Assembly (NCBI GenBank): GCA_022496785.1
Contig: SNAP01000002.1
Span: 248,001-312,000 of the forward strand
Direction of reading: 5' to 3'
Source: Marinilabiliaceae bacterium JC040
Lineage (GTDB): Bacteria > Bacteroidota > Bacteroidia > Bacteroidales > Marinifilaceae
DNA: 64,000 bases
The position numbers were made by a program, and so were the translations under genes. A model generated the notes under the pieces. It was not told the origin of the DNA, ran no database searches, and worked only from the letters and a program-made list of their open reading frames with translations. Shown here one piece after another: positions 14,800 to 50,950 of this stretch (positions are counted from its first letter, which is position 1; every line of letters begins with the position of its first letter).

Positions 14800-14939
14800 T
14801 TTTTAAAACATTTAATTTTATACTATTATAATTTTACTAATACAATAATAAATAAAATTTTATCATAAATTTTTAATTATATACTAATTAAAAGAAATTA
14901 AATAAAACTAGAAGAAAATAATAGATTATTGGAAAATTG

Positions 14940-15013
14940 AGCCGATGGAGGGACTCGAACCCACGACCTGCTGATTACAAATCAGCTGCTCTAGCCAGCT
15001 GAGCTACATCGGC
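14940..15013 (-). tRNA. tRNA-Thr(UGU), copy 1 of 4
   Basis: A 74-base cloverleaf on the minus strand: acceptor GCCGATG / CATCGGC, D-arm GCTC...GAGC, anticodon stem GCTGA / TCAGC around loop TTTGTAA (anticodon TGT), T-loop TTCGAGT. The T-stem has a U-U mismatch at one position in all copies. CCA is not encoded. Last of a tandem array in the direction of transcription. Confidence 0.96.
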
Positions 15014-15043
15014 GTTACTGTATAATACCTTTTTAAAAAATTG

Positions 15044-15117
15044 AGCCGATGGAGGGACTCGAACCCACGACCTGCTGATTACAAATCAGCTGCTCTAGCC
15101 AGCTGAGCTACATCGGC
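15044..15117 (-). tRNA. tRNA-Thr(UGU), copy 2 of 4
   Basis: Identical in sequence to the copy at 14940-15013, displaced by 104 bases, with a 30-base AT-rich spacer. Same TGT anticodon. Confidence 0.96.
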
Positions 15118-15148
15118 GTTATTATATAATATCTTTTCTCAAAAATTG

Positions 15149-15222
15149 AGCCGGTGGAGGGACTCGAACCCACGACCTGCTGATTACAAATCAGCTGCTC
15201 TAGCCAGCTGAGCTACATCGGC
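15149..15222 (-). tRNA. tRNA-Thr(UGU), copy 3 of 4 with acceptor-stem mismatch
   Basis: Same as its neighbours except for one base: the 3' acceptor strand reads CACCGGC instead of CATCGGC, which converts an A-U pair at acceptor position 5 into an A-C mismatch. Otherwise intact, with anticodon TGT. May be less stable or less well processed. Confidence 0.93.
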
Positions 15223-15253
15223 GTTATTATATAATACCTTTTTTAAAAAATTG

Positions 15254-15327
15254 AGCCGATGGAGGGACTCGAACCCACGACCTGCTGATTACAAATCAGC
15301 TGCTCTAGCCAGCTGAGCTACATCGGC
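15254..15327 (-). tRNA. tRNA-Thr(UGU), copy 4 of 4
   Basis: Identical to copies 1 and 2. First tRNA of the array downstream of the SRP RNA; the SRP RNA U-run lies within the 10-base gap, so the array could receive read-through from the SRP promoter. Confidence 0.96.
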
Positions 15328-15330
15328 GTT

Positions 15331-15436
15331 AAAAAAGGGTAAGCTAACTACATCGCACTGCTACAACCACATACCCTTGCTGCCTTCCGACCCTGGGGGA
15401 GTTCTGTAGGAGCTAGTCGTGTAGCACTTACCCGAC
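15331..15436 (-). ncRNA. ffs: Signal recognition particle RNA (small bacterial 4.5S type)
   Basis: Minus-strand RNA of about 100 bases that carries the invariant SRP core CCAGGGTCGGAAGGCAGCAA with its closing stems, and outer strands GGGTAAG / CTTACCC that pair end to end. It ends in six T residues (15331-15336), a natural U-tail. Binds Ffh and targets nascent membrane proteins. A strong promoter lies just upstream. Confidence 0.96.
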
Positions 15437-15438
15437 GA

Positions 15439-15468
15439 CAAAAGTACAAAAAAAGTCTTTCACACCAA
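15439..15468 (-). promoter_or_regulatory. Promoter of SRP RNA
   Basis: Minus strand: TTG (15466-15468), 19-base spacer, TACTTTTG (15439-15446). Exact TAnnTTTG with ideal spacing; initiation would fall near 15434, matching the 5' end of the SRP helix. One of the clearest Bacteroidota-type promoters in the window. Confidence 0.85.
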
Positions 15469-28554: not shown

Positions 28555-29766
28555 TTATTCATTGTAGTTTGTGATATACGATAGAAAAGCATCTTCTCTA
28601 TTGGGAAGACTAATATTTACAAATCCAGATTTAAGTCTGTTATCTACTGTACACACTGGATTCTTTAGCTTTTCTTTATTGATGAAAAGACGAACATCTT
28701 TTATATATTTTGTACAAAGATACCCCCTATAATTATGATCTATCTTCTTAGATAAGGCTAAAGCTAGTATACCCATATTATATCTAAGATTTATTTCTAT
28801 ACAAGGATGGACCTTCACTTCATTTACATCTTTATATAATAAGCAATCAATTCCAAGGTATCCATAATAACTAGTCTTCAATTTACTTTTATCTATTATA
28901 GACAAATGCTTTTCTACAATTTCCTGAAAATTTATCTTGGATACTATATTTTTAAGATCCTCATTATTTCTATAAACATCTTCAAAATGTAAATTTGTAC
29001 CCTGATAATTTCCTTCTTCATCTGTAAAGAAACTCGTTTTACCAATAAAAGATACTTCTCCTAATTCATTTATGTAATATTGTAAAGAAAAATCTATAAT
29101 CTTATCAAATTTCTTTTCAAGCATAACAAAACCATACTGTTTTATTACACCATTAATCCATTGTTTGTCATAATTAGATAATGATTTTCTATCAATAATT
29201 CTTACTCCTCTACCAGAAGAACTCCAGGGAGATTTCATTACCAAAGAATTTCCTAATCCATCAAAACTTACTAGTTCTTCAATAGATTGAACACTTATAG
29301 GACATTCCTCTATCGAAGGAAAGATTTTTACATCCTTATTTTTTAATAATTTTTCTAGAATTTTCTGAGAAAAAGTTCTACTGTATAAATCTCTAAAATC
29401 TATATTCCAAGATGAATTAATTACATCCTTATATGAATCAGAACAATAATCATAAATATCTCTAAATATGAAATGCATTACAGGACTCCACCCCCAAGGT
29501 CGTAGAAAATTTATATTTCTATCTTTTATTTCCGATAATTTAAGATATTCTGGTAAAGTAAAACCACAATTTAAAATAAAAGACAACCAATCTTTAGGAA
29601 CTTCGTTTTTAACTACAACTATATCATTTGGCTTAGCTAAAAAAGAAACTATCAATTCTAAATCTTCTTCTATAGCTCTCAATCTTGCTGGTGGCATATA
29701 TGAATGATATCCATTCCCCACTGCCAATTCACAAGTAGAATTAAAAAAATATATATCTGGATTCAC
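28555..29766 (-). CDS. Uncharacterised ATP-grasp-like protein
   Basis: 403-residue protein that I cannot place in a named family. The C-terminal two thirds look like an ATP-grasp ligase: LVMKSPWSSSGRGVRIID resembles the flexible ATP-binding loop, GFVMLEKKFDKIIDFSLQYY the adenine-linker strand, and YLGIDCLLY with HPCIEINLRYNMG the Mg-binding acidic/Asn site. The N-terminal part (FFNSTCELAVGNGYHSYMPP) is distinctive. It is the last gene of a four-gene operon and overlaps the upstream activator gene by one base, so a role linked to the dehydratase-like enzyme (ligating a small molecule or modifying a partner) is an inference only. Confidence 0.7.
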   Translation of the reverse strand: MNPDIYFFNSTCELAVGNGYHSYMPPARLRAIEEDLELIVSFLAKPNDIVVVKNEVPKDWLSFILNCGFTLPEYLKLSEIKDRNINFLRPWGWSPVMHFIFRDIYDYCSDSYKDVINSSWNIDFRDLYSRTFSQKILEKLLKNKDVKIFPSIEECPISVQSIEELVSFDGLGNSLVMKSPWSSSGRGVRIIDRKSLSNYDKQWINGVIKQYGFVMLEKKFDKIIDFSLQYYINELGEVSFIGKTSFFTDEEGNYQGTNLHFEDVYRNNEDLKNIVSKINFQEIVEKHLSIIDKSKLKTSYYGYLGIDCLLYKDVNEVKVHPCIEINLRYNMGILALALSKKIDHNYRGYLCTKYIKDVRLFINKEKLKNPVCTVDNRLKSGFVNISLPNREDAFLSYITNYNE

Positions 29767-30548
29767 TAATTCGATTCTAAATTATTTAATTTATATAACA
29801 TCTTGCCATATACACAACAACCAATCGCACCATTAAATTGAGCATCAGGCAAAGGAATAACCTCATCATATTCTGTTCCAAGAAATTTTATTACAGCTTT
29901 ATTCGAAGCTACACCACCTCCTACAAACAATTTTTTTGCTTTATAATGAGATAAAATTCCTTTTAATCTTCTAAATAAAGAATAATTAACTCCTGCACAC
30001 AATCTATCTAATGAGATTCCTTCTGCAATTTTACCTATCAATTCCGACTCTGAGAAAACAGCACAAGTAGAATTAAGCTCCACTGGATTCTCTGAATATT
30101 CTGAAAGGGTCTCAAGTGATACTTCTAAAACATTTGCCATATTTTCTAAATATCTTCCACAAGAAGCTGCACATTTATCATTTAAATCCATATTTGTTAA
30201 AACAGAATTCTCGATACGCATTACCTTTACATCCTGACCTCCTATATCTAAAAGAATAAAATCCTCTTCTTTAGATTGGTAACAAGCTCCTAATGCATGT
30301 GCCTTTAATTCATTTATAGATGTAAAATCATTTAAATTAGTATTATTCCTTCCATAACCTGTAGATATTTTTATATCAACAGGTATATCTGTAAGTCGAG
30401 ATAAATCAAAATGTAATGAATCACGATAATTACAATAATCTCTATAAAACTCCATTGTAGATAGCTGCTTTTTATAAATAACCTTATCATCATTCATAAT
30501 CATCAACTTAACAGCTCTACTTCCCATATCAGCACCTAATACATTCAT
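29766..30548 (-). CDS. BadF/BcrA/HgdC-type ATPase, activator of 2-hydroxyacyl-CoA dehydratase-like proteins
   Basis: 260-residue ASKHA-fold ATPase. Family members form homodimers that share one [4Fe-4S] cluster and inject a low-potential electron into an HgdB-type partner, driven by ATP. Motifs: GADMGSRAVKLMI (phosphate 1), LLDIGGQDVKVM (phosphate 2), NDKCAASCGRYLE and NSTCAVFSESELI (cluster cysteines), VGGGVASNKAV (adenosine). A second Cys in CAASC is unusual compared with the common CAAGTGRF form. Its start overlaps the dehydratase-like gene by 4 bases, so the pair is translationally coupled. Confidence 0.93.
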   Translation of the reverse strand: MNVLGADMGSRAVKLMIMNDDKVIYKKQLSTMEFYRDYCNYRDSLHFDLSRLTDIPVDIKISTGYGRNNTNLNDFTSINELKAHALGACYQSKEEDFILLDIGGQDVKVMRIENSVLTNMDLNDKCAASCGRYLENMANVLEVSLETLSEYSENPVELNSTCAVFSESELIGKIAEGISLDRLCAGVNYSLFRRLKGILSHYKAKKLFVGGGVASNKAVIKFLGTEYDEVIPLPDAQFNGAIGCCVYGKMLYKLNNLESN

Positions 30549-31555
30549 TCAGAACAATTTTTAAATAATTTTCTATCTTTTACCATATCAATAAATGCCT
30601 CTAAACGCAATTTTGTTCTAGCATCTACATTCACACTTTTGTCTCCTTCAATATGTAGAATAGGTATATCAATAGATTTCTTCATTAAAAGATACTGTAC
30701 ACTTCTATAGCAAAATGACTGGTTATAATATACTATCGCATCAATCTTTCTTTCTTCTATTTGTTTTTTTATTTCAGAAATTCTAGATGCTGTATCATAT
30801 GGATATGTAAATAAAAGATATTGTTCATATACATCTCTACAATCAGAATGCCTATGCATACTAAATTCTCTTTGCACCTCATTATAAACAACACATGCGT
30901 TTTGACTCTCTATAAAATCGTATAAATCTGTTGTTATTGGAGGAACTCCAACATACCCGATCCTTAAAGAAAAAGGTAAAGATTCTCTATCACGTATTTC
31001 TATGAGTTTCTCATCTATTTCTAATTCAAATTTCTTATAATCCAAATTAAAATCACTCATACAAACTTGATATAAATGATTTTCAAAACCCTTTACTTTA
31101 CATTCTGTATATGATAGTTTATCTAATTCTATAATTTTATCCCTTAATGGAGATAAAGATTTTCTTACACTCTCAACCTCTTCAAGAGAAACATTAAAAT
31201 GATTCATAAATTTATCTATAGAAGATTTAATAGATAAATAATCTCTACTTATAGGAAATTCAAAAGGATGAACAATAATTCCTCTATCTGCTAATAATTC
31301 TGCTAATACAATACTATTTGAACAATCTCCCGATACAACTGCTACTATTTCTTTTATATCATGACTTAAACAAACTCCATATATCCCCTTTATCCAAGAA
31401 CAGTAACTAGCAGGGAAACCATCTTCTTCTGCTATTTTAATATACTTAGATATATCATCTGCTGTTATAAAAATATTATTAAGATCTAAAGGAGTATATC
31501 CTGCTGCAATCAATACCTCTGACGGAACAGTAGTCGTAATTCCAATATATTTCAT
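30545..31555 (-). CDS. HgdB-type 2-hydroxyacyl-CoA dehydratase subunit-like Fe-S protein
   Basis: 336-residue protein of the 2-hydroxyacyl-CoA dehydratase subunit D family (opening IGITTTVPSEVLIAAGYTPL, then FPASYCSWIKG, VVSGDCSNSI and NQSFCYRSVQYLL). Cys52, Cys78 and Cys282 occupy the spacing expected for the three cluster ligands; additional Cys residues (62 and others) exist. True dehydratases need two such subunits and usually a CoA-transferase or CoA ligase; only one is here. A single subunit paired with its ATPase is the arrangement known for double-cubane cluster proteins, so that class is a serious alternative. One base after the PerR-like gene. Confidence 0.88.
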   Translation of the reverse strand: MKYIGITTTVPSEVLIAAGYTPLDLNNIFITADDISKYIKIAEEDGFPASYCSWIKGIYGVCLSHDIKEIVAVVSGDCSNSIVLAELLADRGIIVHPFEFPISRDYLSIKSSIDKFMNHFNVSLEEVESVRKSLSPLRDKIIELDKLSYTECKVKGFENHLYQVCMSDFNLDYKKFELEIDEKLIEIRDRESLPFSLRIGYVGVPPITTDLYDFIESQNACVVYNEVQREFSMHRHSDCRDVYEQYLLFTYPYDTASRISEIKKQIEERKIDAIVYYNQSFCYRSVQYLLMKKSIDIPILHIEGDKSVNVDARTKLRLEAFIDMVKDRKLFKNCSE

Positions 31556-31556
31556 A

Positions 31557-31979
31557 TTATACTTCTCTAGATTCTAAACAAGTCTTACATACCCCTTTTA
31601 AAAAGATATAGTGTTCATTAATTTGAAAATCTTTCAAGTTCATAAAAGTTTTTATCTCCTCCTCTAAACCAAAATCATATACAGCACCACACACTACACA
31701 TTTAAAATGACCATGCAAACTTGTGTCTGCATCATACCTCACCTCTTTCTCTTCAATTGTTAATGCTTGAACAACTCCATGTGATAAAAACAATTTCATT
31801 GTATTATACACTGTTGTTCGCGATAAAGTTGGGAACATCCCTCTTAATGAATCAAAAATCGTATCCACTGTTGGATGATTTCTTTCTCTAAGAAGATATT
31901 CTAAAATTTTCATTCTATGAAAAGAAGGACGTATACCTTGACTCTTAAGATATACATCAATATTGTTTACATCTACCAT
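31557..31979 (-). CDS. Fur-family regulator, PerR-like
   Basis: 140-residue Fur-superfamily repressor. Winged helix with FPTLSRTTVYNTMKLF. All five residues that bind the regulatory metal in Bacillus PerR align: His35, Asp83, His89, His91 and Asp102. The structural zinc cysteines are present as Cys94/Cys97 (CVVC) and Cys131/Cys134 (CKTC). Asp at the last position is the peroxide-sensing form, so I predict a PerR rather than an iron-sensing Fur. First gene of the operon with the dehydratase-like protein; a PerR-box-like palindrome lies 10 bases upstream of its start. Confidence 0.9.
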   Translation of the reverse strand: MVDVNNIDVYLKSQGIRPSFHRMKILEYLLRERNHPTVDTIFDSLRGMFPTLSRTTVYNTMKLFLSHGVVQALTIEEKEVRYDADTSLHGHFKCVVCGAVYDFGLEEEIKTFMNLKDFQINEHYIFLKGVCKTCLESREV

Positions 31980-31988
31980 AATCTAAAA

Positions 31989-32003
31989 CTGTAATAATTA
32001 CAA
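31989..32003. promoter_or_regulatory. Candidate PerR box
   Basis: CTGTAAT-A-ATTACAA: a 7-1-7 arrangement matching 11 of 14 half-site positions of the PerR consensus TTATAAT-N-ATTATAA. It overlaps the end of the -7 box of the perR-like promoter and the expected transcription start, a position that would block transcription. Confidence 0.65.
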
Positions 32004-32030
32004 AAATACAATCTTTATTCAATAATCAAA
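32001..32030 (-). promoter_or_regulatory. Promoter of the perR-like operon
   Basis: Minus strand: TTTG (32027-32030), 18-base spacer, TATTTTTG (32001-32008). Full consensus Bacteroidota promoter, 21 bases ahead of the start codon at 31979. Confidence 0.8.
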
Positions 32031-32070
32031 AATGAGTTAAAGATTTAAGATTTTTACGTATCTTTATTAC

Positions 32071-32709
32071 ATGCTAAAATCTAAAGATATTATTGATATT
32101 TTCCCTTTTGAAGAGGAAGAACTAATAAAAGATATTTTCAAAGAAAGTAGCTTTACTAGCCTTGATGAAAACACTCAACTTATAAAGGAGGGTGAATATA
32201 TAAAATCATTTCCTTTAATTGTTTCTGGCTGTATTAAAGTCTCAAGATTAGATCTTGATGGAGATGAACTACTACTATACTATCTAAATAAAGGTGAAGT
32301 CTGTACAATGGCTCTTACATGTTGTACTACTAATATTAAAAGTAATATACAAGCTATTGCAATTGAAGACAGTAAGATTCTAAAAATTCCTGTTAAATTT
32401 ATTGATGAATGGATGTATAAATATCCTTCTTGGAAAAAATTCATTATGAGTTCTTATAGATTCAAGTTTGAAGAACTTCTTAATACTATTGATTCTATTG
32501 CTTTTATGAAGATGGATCAACGACTTGTATTATACTTCAAGAATCTATACAGAAGTACACACAAAAAAGAATTTATCGGATCTCACAAACAAATAGCCTA
32601 CGACTTAAACACCTCTAGAGAAGTCGTTTCTAGACTATTAAAAAAACTTGAAAAAAATAAAAAAATAGTAATATCTAGGAATAAAATAGATTTTTCTTCA
32701 CTTCTGTAA
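32071..32709 (+). CDS. Crp/Fnr-family regulator (redox cluster)
   Basis: 212-residue regulator: cyclic-nucleotide-binding-like beta barrel (LIKEGEYIKSFPLIVSGCIK, LYYLNKGEVCTMALTCCTT) and a C-terminal helix-turn-helix (SHKQIAYDLNTSREVVSRLLKKLEK). The CTMALTCC stretch is found in several anaerobe Crp/Fnr proteins; whether its cysteines bind a cofactor is unknown. No N-terminal Fnr-type cysteine cluster. Divergent from the perR-like operon (91-base shared region) and upstream of the ferredoxin and flavoprotein genes. Confidence 0.9.
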   Translation: MLKSKDIIDIFPFEEEELIKDIFKESSFTSLDENTQLIKEGEYIKSFPLIVSGCIKVSRLDLDGDELLLYYLNKGEVCTMALTCCTTNIKSNIQAIAIEDSKILKIPVKFIDEWMYKYPSWKKFIMSSYRFKFEELLNTIDSIAFMKMDQRLVLYFKNLYRSTHKKEFIGSHKQIAYDLNTSREVVSRLLKKLEKNKKIVISRNKIDFSSLL

Positions 32710-32719
32710 CTTTTATCAC

Positions 32720-32729
32720 TGACGAACAT
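32720..32729. promoter_or_regulatory. Shared decamer TGACGAACAT, site 2
   Basis: Located 50 bases before the ferredoxin ATG, in the gap after the Crp/Fnr gene. Repeats the decamer at 28517-28526; both are followed by AT-rich sequence. Could be a site for the local Crp/Fnr protein, but it shows no internal dyad. Confidence 0.25.
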
Positions 32730-32778
32730 AATTTTTACCTCTTTATTTGTATCATATTAACAAATCATATATAAATAA

Positions 32779-32973
32779 ATGAGAGATATTATTGTAAATA
32801 ACGACCTATGTGCTAAAGATCATGTTTGTCCACTAGTAAAACTTTGTCCAGCAGATGCTATTAGCCAAAAAAGCATTTATGATGCTCCTACTGTCGATTT
32901 AGATAAATGTGTAAGATGTGGAAAATGTGTAAAATTATGTCCTTATAAAGCTTTTAACTTTAGTAAATCATAA
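32779..32973 (+). CDS. Small ferredoxin with one canonical and one irregular cysteine motif
   Basis: 64-residue Fe-S protein. The C-terminal motif is canonical, CVRCGKCVKLCP (Cys44, 47, 50, 54). The N-terminal motif is spaced C-x5-C-x5-C (Cys11, 17, 23) instead of CxxCxxC, so the first cluster may be altered or absent. It lies 5 bases upstream of a disulfide flavoprotein gene, which suggests that the two exchange electrons. Could feed the HgdC-type ATPase encoded on the other strand. Confidence 0.88.
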   Translation: MRDIIVNNDLCAKDHVCPLVKLCPADAISQKSIYDAPTVDLDKCVRCGKCVKLCPYKAFNFSKS

Positions 32974-32978
32974 AATAT

Positions 32979-34376
32979 ATGAAAAAATTTGATGCAATAG
33001 TTATTGGAATGGGTCCTGCTGGTATGGCAATTACAGCTATGGGATCTGCAATGGGTTTAAAAATTCTTTCTGTTGAAGGAAATAAAGTTGGTGGTGAATG
33101 TTTAAATATTGGATGTATTCCTTCAAAAGGAATCTTAAAAGCTTCCGAGAATATTTATAATGCAAGGAATCTTGACAAATACGGTTTTTCATCTGAATTT
33201 AAACTAAATGGAGGTGACCCTCTTGAAATAGTTAGAAACAATGTAAAAGCTATTAATAACAAAAAATTCTTAAAGACTTTTGAAAAAGCCACTCTAATAC
33301 AAGGATTTGCTAGCTTCATTGATAAAAAAACTATAAGTGTAAATAATGAAAAATACACTGCTAAAAATATATTTATAGCTACTGGTACTCATCCATTCAT
33401 ACCCCCTATACCTGGTTTAAAAGATATAGAATACCTAACAAATGAGAATATCTTTGAACTAAAACACACTCCTAAAAGCATGACTATTATTGGAGGTGGA
33501 GCAATAGGTTCAGAAATGGCTCAGGCTTTTTCTCGACTTGGTAGTAAAGTAACAATCATACAAATGGATAGTCACCTTATTCCTAATGGAGATAAAGATG
33601 CAGCAGAAATCTTAGAAGATGCTTTTAAGAAAGAAGGTATTGATGTATATAACAATACAGCTATAAGTAAAATAGAAAAAGATAATAATGAAATAATAGT
33701 TCATACAGATAAAGGTATATTCAATTCTGAAAAAATTCTTGTAGCTGCAGGAAGAGAAGCTACATTAACTGGTATGAATCTAGCTGAAATAGGTATTAAA
33801 TTAGGTAAAAATAAAATTCTTGTTGATTCTCGATTAAGAACTAATATTAAAAACATATATGCTGTTGGAGATATTAATGGAATAGCTCAACTATCACATG
33901 CCGCTATGCACCAAGGAATGCTTGCTTTAATGGATGCAATTAGTCCTATTTCTATTAAAAGATTAAAATACAAAAACTACACCTTACCTTGGTCTGTTTT
34001 CACATCTCCTGAAAGTTCTCAAGTTGGACTAACAGAAAAAGAAGCTAAAGCAAAAGGTCTTAAATATGAAATCACTAAGAAAGATTATTCTTCTTATGGA
34101 CTTACAGTATCAGTTGGTAAACCTGATGGTTTTATAAAAGTTATACATTCTCCTATGGGTAAAATATATGGAGTAACAATCATTGGAGAGAATTCTTCTG
34201 AACTTATAAACGAATGGGCATTAGCCATTCAGAATAAAATAAAATTGCATCAAGTAATGATGACTATGCATTCATTCCCTTCTTTTAGTATGCTAAACAA
34301 AATGGTAACTGAAGATTGGATGATGAAAAAAATGAATAACAATCTTCTTAAGAAGTTTATTAAATGGTTATATTAA
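32979..34376 (+). CDS. FAD-dependent pyridine nucleotide-disulfide oxidoreductase (Lpd/Mer-like)
   Basis: 465-residue flavoprotein with the fold of lipoamide dehydrogenase. N-terminal FAD site (AIVIGMGPAGMAIT), redox-active disulfide GGECLNIGCIPSKG (Cys41, Cys46), NAD(P)H site (TIIGGGAIGSEMAQAFSRLG), and AVGDINGIAQLSHAA for FAD. The C-terminal interface motif of lipoamide dehydrogenase (HPTxxE) is changed to FPSFSM, so both the catalytic His and the Glu are missing and lipoamide is an unlikely substrate. No 2-oxoacid dehydrogenase genes nearby. Five bases after the ferredoxin gene; ends one base before the convergent tamB stop. Confidence 0.9.
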   Translation: MKKFDAIVIGMGPAGMAITAMGSAMGLKILSVEGNKVGGECLNIGCIPSKGILKASENIYNARNLDKYGFSSEFKLNGGDPLEIVRNNVKAINNKKFLKTFEKATLIQGFASFIDKKTISVNNEKYTAKNIFIATGTHPFIPPIPGLKDIEYLTNENIFELKHTPKSMTIIGGGAIGSEMAQAFSRLGSKVTIIQMDSHLIPNGDKDAAEILEDAFKKEGIDVYNNTAISKIEKDNNEIIVHTDKGIFNSEKILVAAGREATLTGMNLAEIGIKLGKNKILVDSRLRTNIKNIYAVGDINGIAQLSHAAMHQGMLALMDAISPISIKRLKYKNYTLPWSVFTSPESSQVGLTEKEAKAKGLKYEITKKDYSSYGLTVSVGKPDGFIKVIHSPMGKIYGVTIIGENSSELINEWALAIQNKIKLHQVMMTMHSFPSFSMLNKMVTEDWMMKKMNNNLLKKFIKWLY

Positions 34377-49573: not shown

Positions 49574-49581
49574 CACCAAGA

Positions 49582-49673
49582 AAGGAAATGGAGTCTTCCT
49601 TCCCCGAACTGCCATGAGCTAATGACTCCTACGATAAACTGTAATATTAACCATCATTGCAGTCTTTGTAGGA
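49582..49673 (+). promoter_or_regulatory. Fluoride (crcB) riboswitch
   Basis: The aptamer (49582-49634) follows the crcB-motif layout: GGAAATGGAGTCTTCC first helix with the ATGG core, CGAACTGCC, and the hallmark GCTAATGACTCCTAC. The ACTCCTAC end can instead pair with GTAGGA at 49668-49673, which gives a plausible expression platform. Sits directly upstream of the cation:proton antiporter gene, a class of gene that known fluoride riboswitches control. Confidence 0.88.
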
Positions 49674-49714
49674 TTATATATAGCAAAGAAATGTAATGGG
49701 AAAAATTGAAGGAA

Positions 49715-50950
49715 ATGAACATAAGTATTGCATTAACTTTTCTTTTAGGAATGCTTTTAGCTTTTTTATCGAAAAAAGTAAAACTACCAACTCTAGTTGG
49801 TATGTTGTTAACGGGTATTATTCTTGGCCCGTATGGATTAAATCAATTAACATCTTCTTTATTAGGAATTTCTGTAGATCTAAGGCAAATTGCTTTAGTC
49901 ATTATTCTTATGCGAGCTGGTTTAGCTCTTGACATTAGTGAATTAAAAAGAGCTGGTAGACCTGCTTTATTGTTATGTTTTCTACCTGCATGTTGCGAAA
50001 TGTTAGGTGTTACCCTTATAGCACCATCACTATTAGGAATTTCAACACTTGAAGCTGCAACTATAGGATCGATAGTAGCTGCTGTCTCCCCAGCTGTTAT
50101 AGTACCTAAGATGCTTAGGTTAATGAAAGAAGGATATGGAACTCAGAAATCAATTCCACAATTTATTATGGCTGGTGGTTCAGTAGATGATGTTTTTGTA
50201 ATTGTTATATTCACTGTATTAACTAGTCTTTTAATGGGAAAAGAAGTCTCTGCCGTGAGTTTTCTCCATATTCCTATATCTATAATAGTTGGTTTGCTTG
50301 TAGGTATATTATCTGGATATTTAATAATTCAATTTTTCAGAAAATTCAATATGAGTGATACATCAAAAGTAATTTTACTACTATCAGTATCATTTATTCT
50401 TTTAGGCTTAGAAAAAGAGATTAAAGATATTATACCAATGTCTGGATTATTGGCTATAATGAGTGTTGGTATAATGATATATAAACAAGATAAATCTCTA
50501 GCACCAAAACTATCGTCTAAATTTAGTCAACTATGGATAGCAGCAGAAATCATTCTTTTTGTTTTAGTTGGTGCTGATGTTAATATAGACTATGCCCTTG
50601 CATCTGGATTAAATGCCATATTTGTTGTATTAGGAGGTCTTGTTTTTAGAATGATAGGTGTATATTTGTGCGTTATTGGAACTAAGCTTAATAATAAAGA
50701 AAGATTATTTTGTATGATTGCATACACTCCAAAAGCCACTGTACAAGCTGCAATAGGTTCTTTACCACTAGCTTGGGGTTTAGAATGTGGAAATATCGCC
50801 TTAACAGTAGCGGTATTAGCTATTCTAATTACTGCACCTTTAGGAGCTTTTGGTATAGAGATGACTTACAAGAAACTTCTTAGAAACAGTGGTGAAATTA
50901 AACTTTCTGATACTCAAAAAGAAGAAGAAGAAGCTTTTTCAATGAATTAA
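49715..50950 (+). CDS. Cation:proton antiporter (CPA family) under fluoride riboswitch
   Basis: 411-residue membrane protein with about 12 helices, of the Na+/H+ exchanger type (SIALTFLLGMLLAFLSKKVKLPTLVGML..., ILGPYGLNQL, VVAAVSPAVIVPKMLRL, AGGSVDDVFVIVIFTVL with the SVDD ion-site pair, TPKATVQAAIGSLPLAWG). Start at ATG 49715 (MNISIALTF), not at the TTG three codons earlier. The upstream riboswitch implies induction by fluoride, so the protein likely helps fluoride resistance by moving ions or acting as an exporter. No crcB/fluc or eriC gene is adjacent. Confidence 0.9.
   Translation: MNISIALTFLLGMLLAFLSKKVKLPTLVGMLLTGIILGPYGLNQLTSSLLGISVDLRQIALVIILMRAGLALDISELKRAGRPALLLCFLPACCEMLGVTLIAPSLLGISTLEAATIGSIVAAVSPAVIVPKMLRLMKEGYGTQKSIPQFIMAGGSVDDVFVIVIFTVLTSLLMGKEVSAVSFLHIPISIIVGLLVGILSGYLIIQFFRKFNMSDTSKVILLLSVSFILLGLEKEIKDIIPMSGLLAIMSVGIMIYKQDKSLAPKLSSKFSQLWIAAEIILFVLVGADVNIDYALASGLNAIFVVLGGLVFRMIGVYLCVIGTKLNNKERLFCMIAYTPKATVQAAIGSLPLAWGLECGNIALTVAVLAILITAPLGAFGIEMTYKKLLRNSGEIKLSDTQKEEEEAFSMN

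Follow-up and report, generated by a model that had tools for sequence, protein, structure and literature searches.

What does a protein of the 2-hydroxyacyl-CoA dehydratase type do in a bacterium where it has an activator but no partner subunit? The question is raised by a stretch of 64,000 nucleotides from Marinilabiliaceae bacterium JC040 (contig SNAP01000002.1, positions 248,001 to 312,000 of the forward strand; below "the window", whose own numbering is used for coordinates in it). It encodes a single-subunit HgdB-type Fe-S protein of 336 aa (30545-31555, minus strand) and an ASKHA-type activator ATPase of 260 aa (29766-30548, minus strand). Judging from gene content and sequence comparison, the two proteins probably constitute an ATP-dependent [4Fe-4S] reductase that converts preQ0 (7-cyano-7-deazaguanine) into preQ1, and thereby replaces QueF in queuosine synthesis.

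The HgdB-activator pair and its relatives

The HgdB-type protein scores 118 bits against HGD-D (PF06050), above the curated cut-off of 28.4 bits, which makes it a member of the HGD-D/BCR-HAD superfamily. HGD-D is its sole Pfam match, and no homology to the QueF family (PF14489) was found. The activator scores 162.6 bits against CoA_E_activ (TIGR00241; curated cut-off 125.4 bits) and 109 bits against BcrAD_BadFG, and carries the [4Fe-4S]-type cysteines C126, C130 and C162, of which C126 and C162 are invariant in three aligned sequences. A preliminary description of the window had read the protein as a lone HgdB-type Fe-S subunit accompanied by its ATPase, and these family matches bear it out.

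A degenerate-pattern scan found the nearest relatives of the HgdB-type protein in a Peptoclostridium metagenome-assembled genome (MAG; 55% identity) and in a Fusobacteria MAG (50%), and the activator is 55-56% identical to the partner activators in the Peptoclostridium locus L002 and the Fusobacteria locus L003. A search profile built from three sequences, those of the window and the two nearest relatives, matched 64 of 348 genomes of the Bacillota phylum, 15 of 98 Fusobacteriota genomes and, among 395 Bacteroidota genomes, only the window's own. The proteins fall into two clades, A and B, that are split with 100/100 support in a midpoint drawing. Type A comprises 22 loci (including the window) in 21 genomes, namely Fusobacteriota (15/98), a few Bacillota and one member of the Bacteroidales. 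Type B comprises 36 loci from Clostridia, where the pair occurs in one copy per genome within a conserved block (L043-L078) of murI-like, metallo-beta-lactamase-fold, RNase PH-like, RdgB-like and YfcE genes, their names being read from sequence and partly checked.

Linkage of the pair to queuosine genes

Downstream of the pair, 18 of the 22 type A loci carry one or more of the genes queD, queE and queC. The order is HgdB-ASKHA-queD-queE-queC in the Peptoclostridium MAG (L002), HgdB-ASKHA-queC-queD-queE in three Bacillota loci and HgdB-ASKHA-queD-queE-(folE)-queC in most Fusobacteriota, and in the Fusobacteria MAG (L003) the pair stands directly before queC. Among cultured organisms, Ilyobacter polytropus DSM 2926 carries these genes on plasmid pILYOP01 (ILYOP_RS11680 to RS11655), its pair being WP_013388700.1 and WP_013388699.1. 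In genome G095 the pair is followed by a gene for the QueT importer (PF06177), and QueA and QueG are present and QueC is not, as expected if preQ0 is imported and then reduced; salvage of preQ0 by bacteria is known (PMC5372724, PMC11130926). The type A loci without a que neighbour are the window, G848 (L110) and a second copy in G846 (L099 6936-7901), the latter being a decayed copy on the same contig with its activator shortened to 53 aa. No preQ1 riboswitch at or above the gathering threshold was found in 18 type A loci, 9 type B loci, 13 que loci and the window, a result of little weight either way.

Some further features were seen at these loci. Divergent from HgdB-ASKHA-QueT, a gene read as CbiZ-like lies between two cobalamin riboswitches (L039 5439-6664). 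Next to some type B que loci (L139 7799-10601, L143 7003-10011) lies an additional HGD-D-like pair that has an activator of its own, and close by there is a Fur-family gene; L143 also contains an open reading frame (ORF) of tandem copies of a 34-aa peptide (886-1329; AQAKFHLIPVRKHSSGEALIQLGLPPASKKDLDL).

The pair and QueF exclude each other

Gene content was compared in 80 genomes that had been picked by HgdB status before their QueF and QueC content was known. QueF is absent from all 21 type A genomes, the window's included, and in none of the 12 sampled type B genomes does it rise above the cut-off. QueC is present in 18 of the 21 type A genomes (again with the window's) and in 11 of the 12 type B genomes, and QueA in 21 of 21 type A genomes. 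The 37 genomes with QueC divide into 29 that carry the pair but lack QueF, 7 that carry QueF but lack the pair, and a single one (G849, which also lacks QueA) without either; no genome has both. Fisher's test of the exclusion gives p = 8e-7, and for Fusobacteriota alone p = 5e-4 (13/0 against 1/5), both values ignoring shared ancestry. QueF adjoins QueC in the six QueF-positive que loci that were read and, by coordinates, likewise in a seventh (G841), just as the pair does in type A operons. Exclusion in gene content together with this adjacency indicates that the pair occupies the place of QueF in the genome as well as in the operon.

Since QueD, QueE and QueC are present upstream, QueA and QueG or QueH downstream, and QueF is absent, the step left open is the conversion of preQ0 to preQ1. 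From the que linkage it was initially conceivable that the pair is a third epoxyqueuosine reductase in place of QueG or QueH, as reductive deoxygenation would suit dehydratase-type chemistry. The profile results ruled this replacement out: QueG is above the cut-off in five type A genomes (the window's, G095, G382, G360 and G178) and QueH is found in 14 of the remaining 16, so that 19 of 21 already have one or the other and the gap in the pathway is at QueF. We therefore take the pair not to act at the last queuosine step and give an epoxyqueuosine reductase only the slightest chance. QueG and QueH resemble the proposed reductase in being metal-dependent reductases of the queuosine pathway, but they act at the last step and co-occur with the pair. 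With QueF, on the other hand, the pair would share both the reaction and the pathway slot. QueF has the tunnelling fold and a thioimide Cys and uses NADPH (PMC5372742); it is unrelated in fold and cofactor to the pair, for which we propose an ATP-driven Fe-S mechanism.

The one QueC-positive genome with neither system, the Fusobacteriota genome G849, has queC-queD-queE (L147 5000-6762) without QueA, QueF or HgdB. Its QueC shares 73% identity with the QueC of the Bacillota genome G360, which makes contamination or transfer likely.

Cluster site and fold of the HgdB-type protein

The 58 type A and B proteins have no invariant cysteines besides C52, C78 and C282, and these three align with cysteines of HadB and of the double-cubane cluster protein (DCCP). 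In BzdO the catalytic [4Fe-4S] cluster is held by three Cys and a water or hydroxide, and the double cubane [8Fe-9S] of BzdN by six Cys (PMC11971306). At the positions of the extra BzdN ligands the HgdB-type protein has no Cys: Cys36 aligns with T7, and Cys263 and Cys293 with Cys-free stretches. Since no more than three Cys are invariant, the protein is expected to hold one [4Fe-4S] cluster with an open iron site, and not a double cubane. Near the motifs the polar residues N159, H160, D168, N225, E226, Q228, R229 and Q279 are conserved in both types, and the sets of conserved residues in A and B are nearly identical; C62 is invariant in type A only.

An AlphaFold2 (AF2) model of the HgdB-type protein built from three sequences (predicted local distance difference test, pLDDT, 78.7; predicted template modelling score, pTM, 0.78) was matched to structures in the PDB. 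The model matches BzdN (Z 29.5, root mean square deviation, rmsd, 2.7, 312 residues aligned), DCCP (7yyl/7yzm; Z 29.0, rmsd 2.6, 311 aligned) and HadB (Z 28.1, rmsd 3.1, 314 aligned), and on this model the three matches are tied. The preliminary description had favoured the architecture of double-cubane proteins, in which case ferredoxin and a flavoprotein would supply the protein with electrons for the very low-potential reduction of small molecules. DCCP and DCCP-R indeed have a single HGD-D subunit with an activator and a similar fold, and there is a weak match to the NCBIfam double-cubane model NF040772. But that match reaches only 45.8 bits, far under the curated cut-off of 350, three of the six ligand cysteines are kept and none of them at the distal-cubane positions, and the operon partners are queuosine genes. 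The double-cubane assignment did not hold up, and we consider a DCCP function very unlikely.

The pair shares the HGD-D fold, the three-Cys [4Fe-4S] site and the ASKHA activator with 2-hydroxyisocaproyl-CoA dehydratase (HadBC) and class I benzoyl-CoA reductase (BzdNO). It differs from them in that the window protein is shorter, consists of a single subunit and has no CoA genes nearby, and in that the family is linked to queuosine genes.

The window genome

The window genome (2.56 Mb in 117 contigs) encodes one HGD-D protein in total, and no dehydratase alpha subunit is therefore present anywhere in it. The lack of a second dehydratase subunit, noted before for the window, thus holds genome-wide, and the earlier view that amino-acid fermentation is a poor fit is upheld. 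A classical 2-hydroxyacyl-CoA dehydratase subunit could be read from the HGD-D and activator families as such. The sole HGD-D protein of the genome contradicts a beta subunit, however, the 336 aa compare with 374-399 aa for the HadB and HadA chains, and in relatives the neighbours are que genes; the chance of such a function is close to nil.

The genes expected around a preQ0 reductase are found in the same genome. An intact queC-queD-queE group lies on another contig (L135 383-2427), QueG is present, QueH and QueF are absent, and there are two copies of QueA (C1:459162-460211 and C114:31890-33068), the second of which scores as a longer frame of 406 aa.

Collectively, the preQ0 reductase reading is preferred because the pair is linked to que operons in separate lineages, the queT case of G095 among them; because it and QueF are mutually exclusive and exchange positions beside QueC; because QueA and QueG or QueH are kept, leaving preQ0 to preQ1 open; because the window genome itself has queC-queD-queE, QueA and QueG and no QueF; and because the three-Cys site is common to BzdO and HadB, with a fold matching low-potential reductases.

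Points that weigh against preQ0 reduction

A number of observations weigh against this assignment, some for the family and some for the window copy. HgdB status decided which 80 genomes were compared, and these are phylogenetically non-independent; two to three type A genomes lack QueC (G848, where the pair has no que neighbour, and G864, which is fragmented). In most type B que loci, all QueF-negative, a DUF366 gene (PF04017) lies between queC and queE (L139-L146; e.g. L141 4334-4891 and L144 5596-6153), and DUF366 rivals the pair for the QueF step in type B genomes, which makes it a second uncharacterised queuosine candidate. The pair might then have another 7-deazaguanine role or serve in redox protection, with preQ1 made by an unrecognised enzyme such as DUF366 in type B, and G848 and G076, which carry the pair without QueC, would fit such a role. 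Type A operons, however, contain neither DUF366 nor any other constant extra gene, and the conserved residues of A and B are nearly the same. We regard this alternative as improbable, though it is the most serious one that we consider. Our confidence that type A proteins are preQ0 reductases is moderate, and it is weaker for the same function in type B.

Of 75 near-invariant positions the window copy, which sits on a long branch, has changed 8 (P234H, Y249F and H276Y among them), the most among the members checked, and it is unlinked to que genes. Moreover, 15 of 35 same-family relatives are QueF-negative without having the pair (20 of 35 are QueF-positive), a count that covers QueF only; whole-pathway loss or other solutions are possible in these 15. 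It could be, then, that the family reduces preQ0 and the window copy now acts on another substrate or only under special conditions, as the new operon partners might also suggest. The window genome nevertheless keeps queCDE, QueA and QueG and has no QueF, and the cluster cysteines and the activator are retained, so that we judge such a divergence unlikely. That the window copy retains preQ0 reductase function is a claim we make with weaker confidence than the one for type A.

Other genes of the window locus

In the window the pair is part of a minus-strand group in which a PerR/Fur-family regulator (31557-31979; FUR PF01475, 77.9 bits) precedes it and a 403-aa ATP-grasp-like protein (28555-29766; conserved ATP-grasp-like motifs) follows. 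In the order PerR/HgdB/ASKHA/ATP-grasp, neighbouring genes are first separated by 1 nt, then overlap by 4 nt and finally by 1 nt. Across a divergent gap of 91 nt (31980-32070) the plus strand encodes a Crp/Fnr-family regulator (32071-32709; cNMP_binding, 38.8 bits), a small ferredoxin with Fer4 domains (32779-32973) and a pyridine nucleotide-disulfide oxidoreductase, or disulfide flavoprotein (32979-34376; Pyr_redox_2, 213.5 bits). All seven are open frames in an ORF check, which with the family matches confirms the genes, coordinates, junctions and divergent gap as first described. The four minus-strand genes have a G+C content of 0.275-0.31 against 0.28 for the window, so that composition gives no sign of recent transfer, and a mobile origin of these genes, considered as a candidate, is not indicated by it.

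The wider system proposed for these genes fared less well. Neither the ATP-grasp gene nor the Crp/ferredoxin/flavoprotein set occurs at any other type A locus (0/21), and HgdB is never linked to a PerR-type gene there. The two operons had been joined by proximity into one candidate redox system, but they do not co-occur in relatives, which by the preliminary description's own criterion refutes the link between them; the steady partners of the pair there are queuosine genes. PerR-type control and the divergent ferredoxin and flavoprotein are particular to the window species. Ferredoxin as electron donor to the pair, and the disulfide flavoprotein as reductase of the ferredoxin, are possible but unproven, and a tie of the Crp/Fnr regulator to HgdB is unsupported.

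The nearest NCBIfam model of the PerR-like protein is a PerR (97 bits against a cut-off of 180). Encoded 1 nt upstream of HgdB, it probably controls the window operon, in this species only, and oxidative-stress control is possible but unsupported. A scan of the window with a PerR-box consensus gave scores no higher than shuffles. Within the divergent region the perfect 6-1-6 palindrome TGTAATAATTACA (31990-32002) is a candidate PerR/Fur operator; it is AT-rich and may occur by chance.

The ATP-grasp-like protein has no Pfam or PHROGs match, only a weak match to LdmS (31 bits), and its single-sequence AF2 model is too poor for use (pLDDT 30.8). Relatives about 25% identical, with the ATP-grasp-like motifs conserved among Bacteroidales, are found in Parabacteroides, Phocaeicola, Prevotella and Bacteroides, where the annotated records show neighbours such as nifJ or DUF349 and no HgdB. 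As it occurs across Bacteroidales without HgdB nearby, it is a gene of the lineage that ended up beside the window HgdB, translationally coupled there and outside the conserved system.

Elsewhere in the window, at 14939-15327 and 15333-15440, four tandem tRNA-Thr(TGT) genes adjoin a Bacteroidales small signal recognition particle RNA, which agrees with the origin of the window, and a fluoride riboswitch (49575-49638, plus strand) lies ahead of the ORF 49706-50950.

Proposed mechanism and implications

The reduction of a nitrile to an amine takes four electrons, and activator-driven, ATP-coupled delivery of single electrons is established chemistry of the dehydratase/reductase family. In the proposed mechanism the activator dimer would take single electrons from ferredoxin, hydrolyse ATP and hand the electrons at very low potential to the [4Fe-4S] cluster at C52, C78 and C282. 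The iron without a Cys ligand might bind the preQ0 nitrile or protonate it, and four electrons and four protons would turn it into the aminomethyl group of preQ1. A PerR-type regulator ahead of the window pair would suit an oxygen-sensitive enzyme. We infer the substrate, the product, the number of electrons and the form in which the base is reduced, free or bound to tRNA. Our confidence is strong in what was read directly by computation, that is the gene content, the family and clade, the operon linkage and the exclusion of QueF, and likewise in the three-Cys site.

The literature searched, mostly open-access so that earlier publication is possible, contains no paper that joins HGD-D/activase pairs, or DUF366, to queuosine. 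Nor does a dehydratase come up in the main text of a survey of the genes around QueC from 2026 (PMC13329287).

On balance we lean towards the view that in many anaerobes (64/348 genomes of the Bacillota phylum and 15/98 Fusobacteriota) preQ1 is made by type A and type B pairs alike, acting as ATP-driven [4Fe-4S] nitrile reductases. The QueF reaction would then have been invented independently, and an enzyme of the dehydratase/benzoyl-CoA reductase type with its ATP-driven activator would have its first role in tRNA modification. To our knowledge, preQ0 reduction by QueF is the only enzymatic nitrile-to-amine reduction in primary metabolism. If our proposal is true, the pair would be a new biological route from nitrile to amine and a second, unrelated solution that is driven by ATP and based on Fe-S chemistry. 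It would close the gap that queuosine synthesis shows in Fusobacteriota and in many Clostridia, whose genomes have QueC and QueA and lack QueF, and some members of a large orphan branch within the HGD-D superfamily would gain a physiological substrate. Annotations as "2-hydroxyacyl-CoA dehydratase" would then have to be corrected, and predictions of which anaerobes make queuosine would change.

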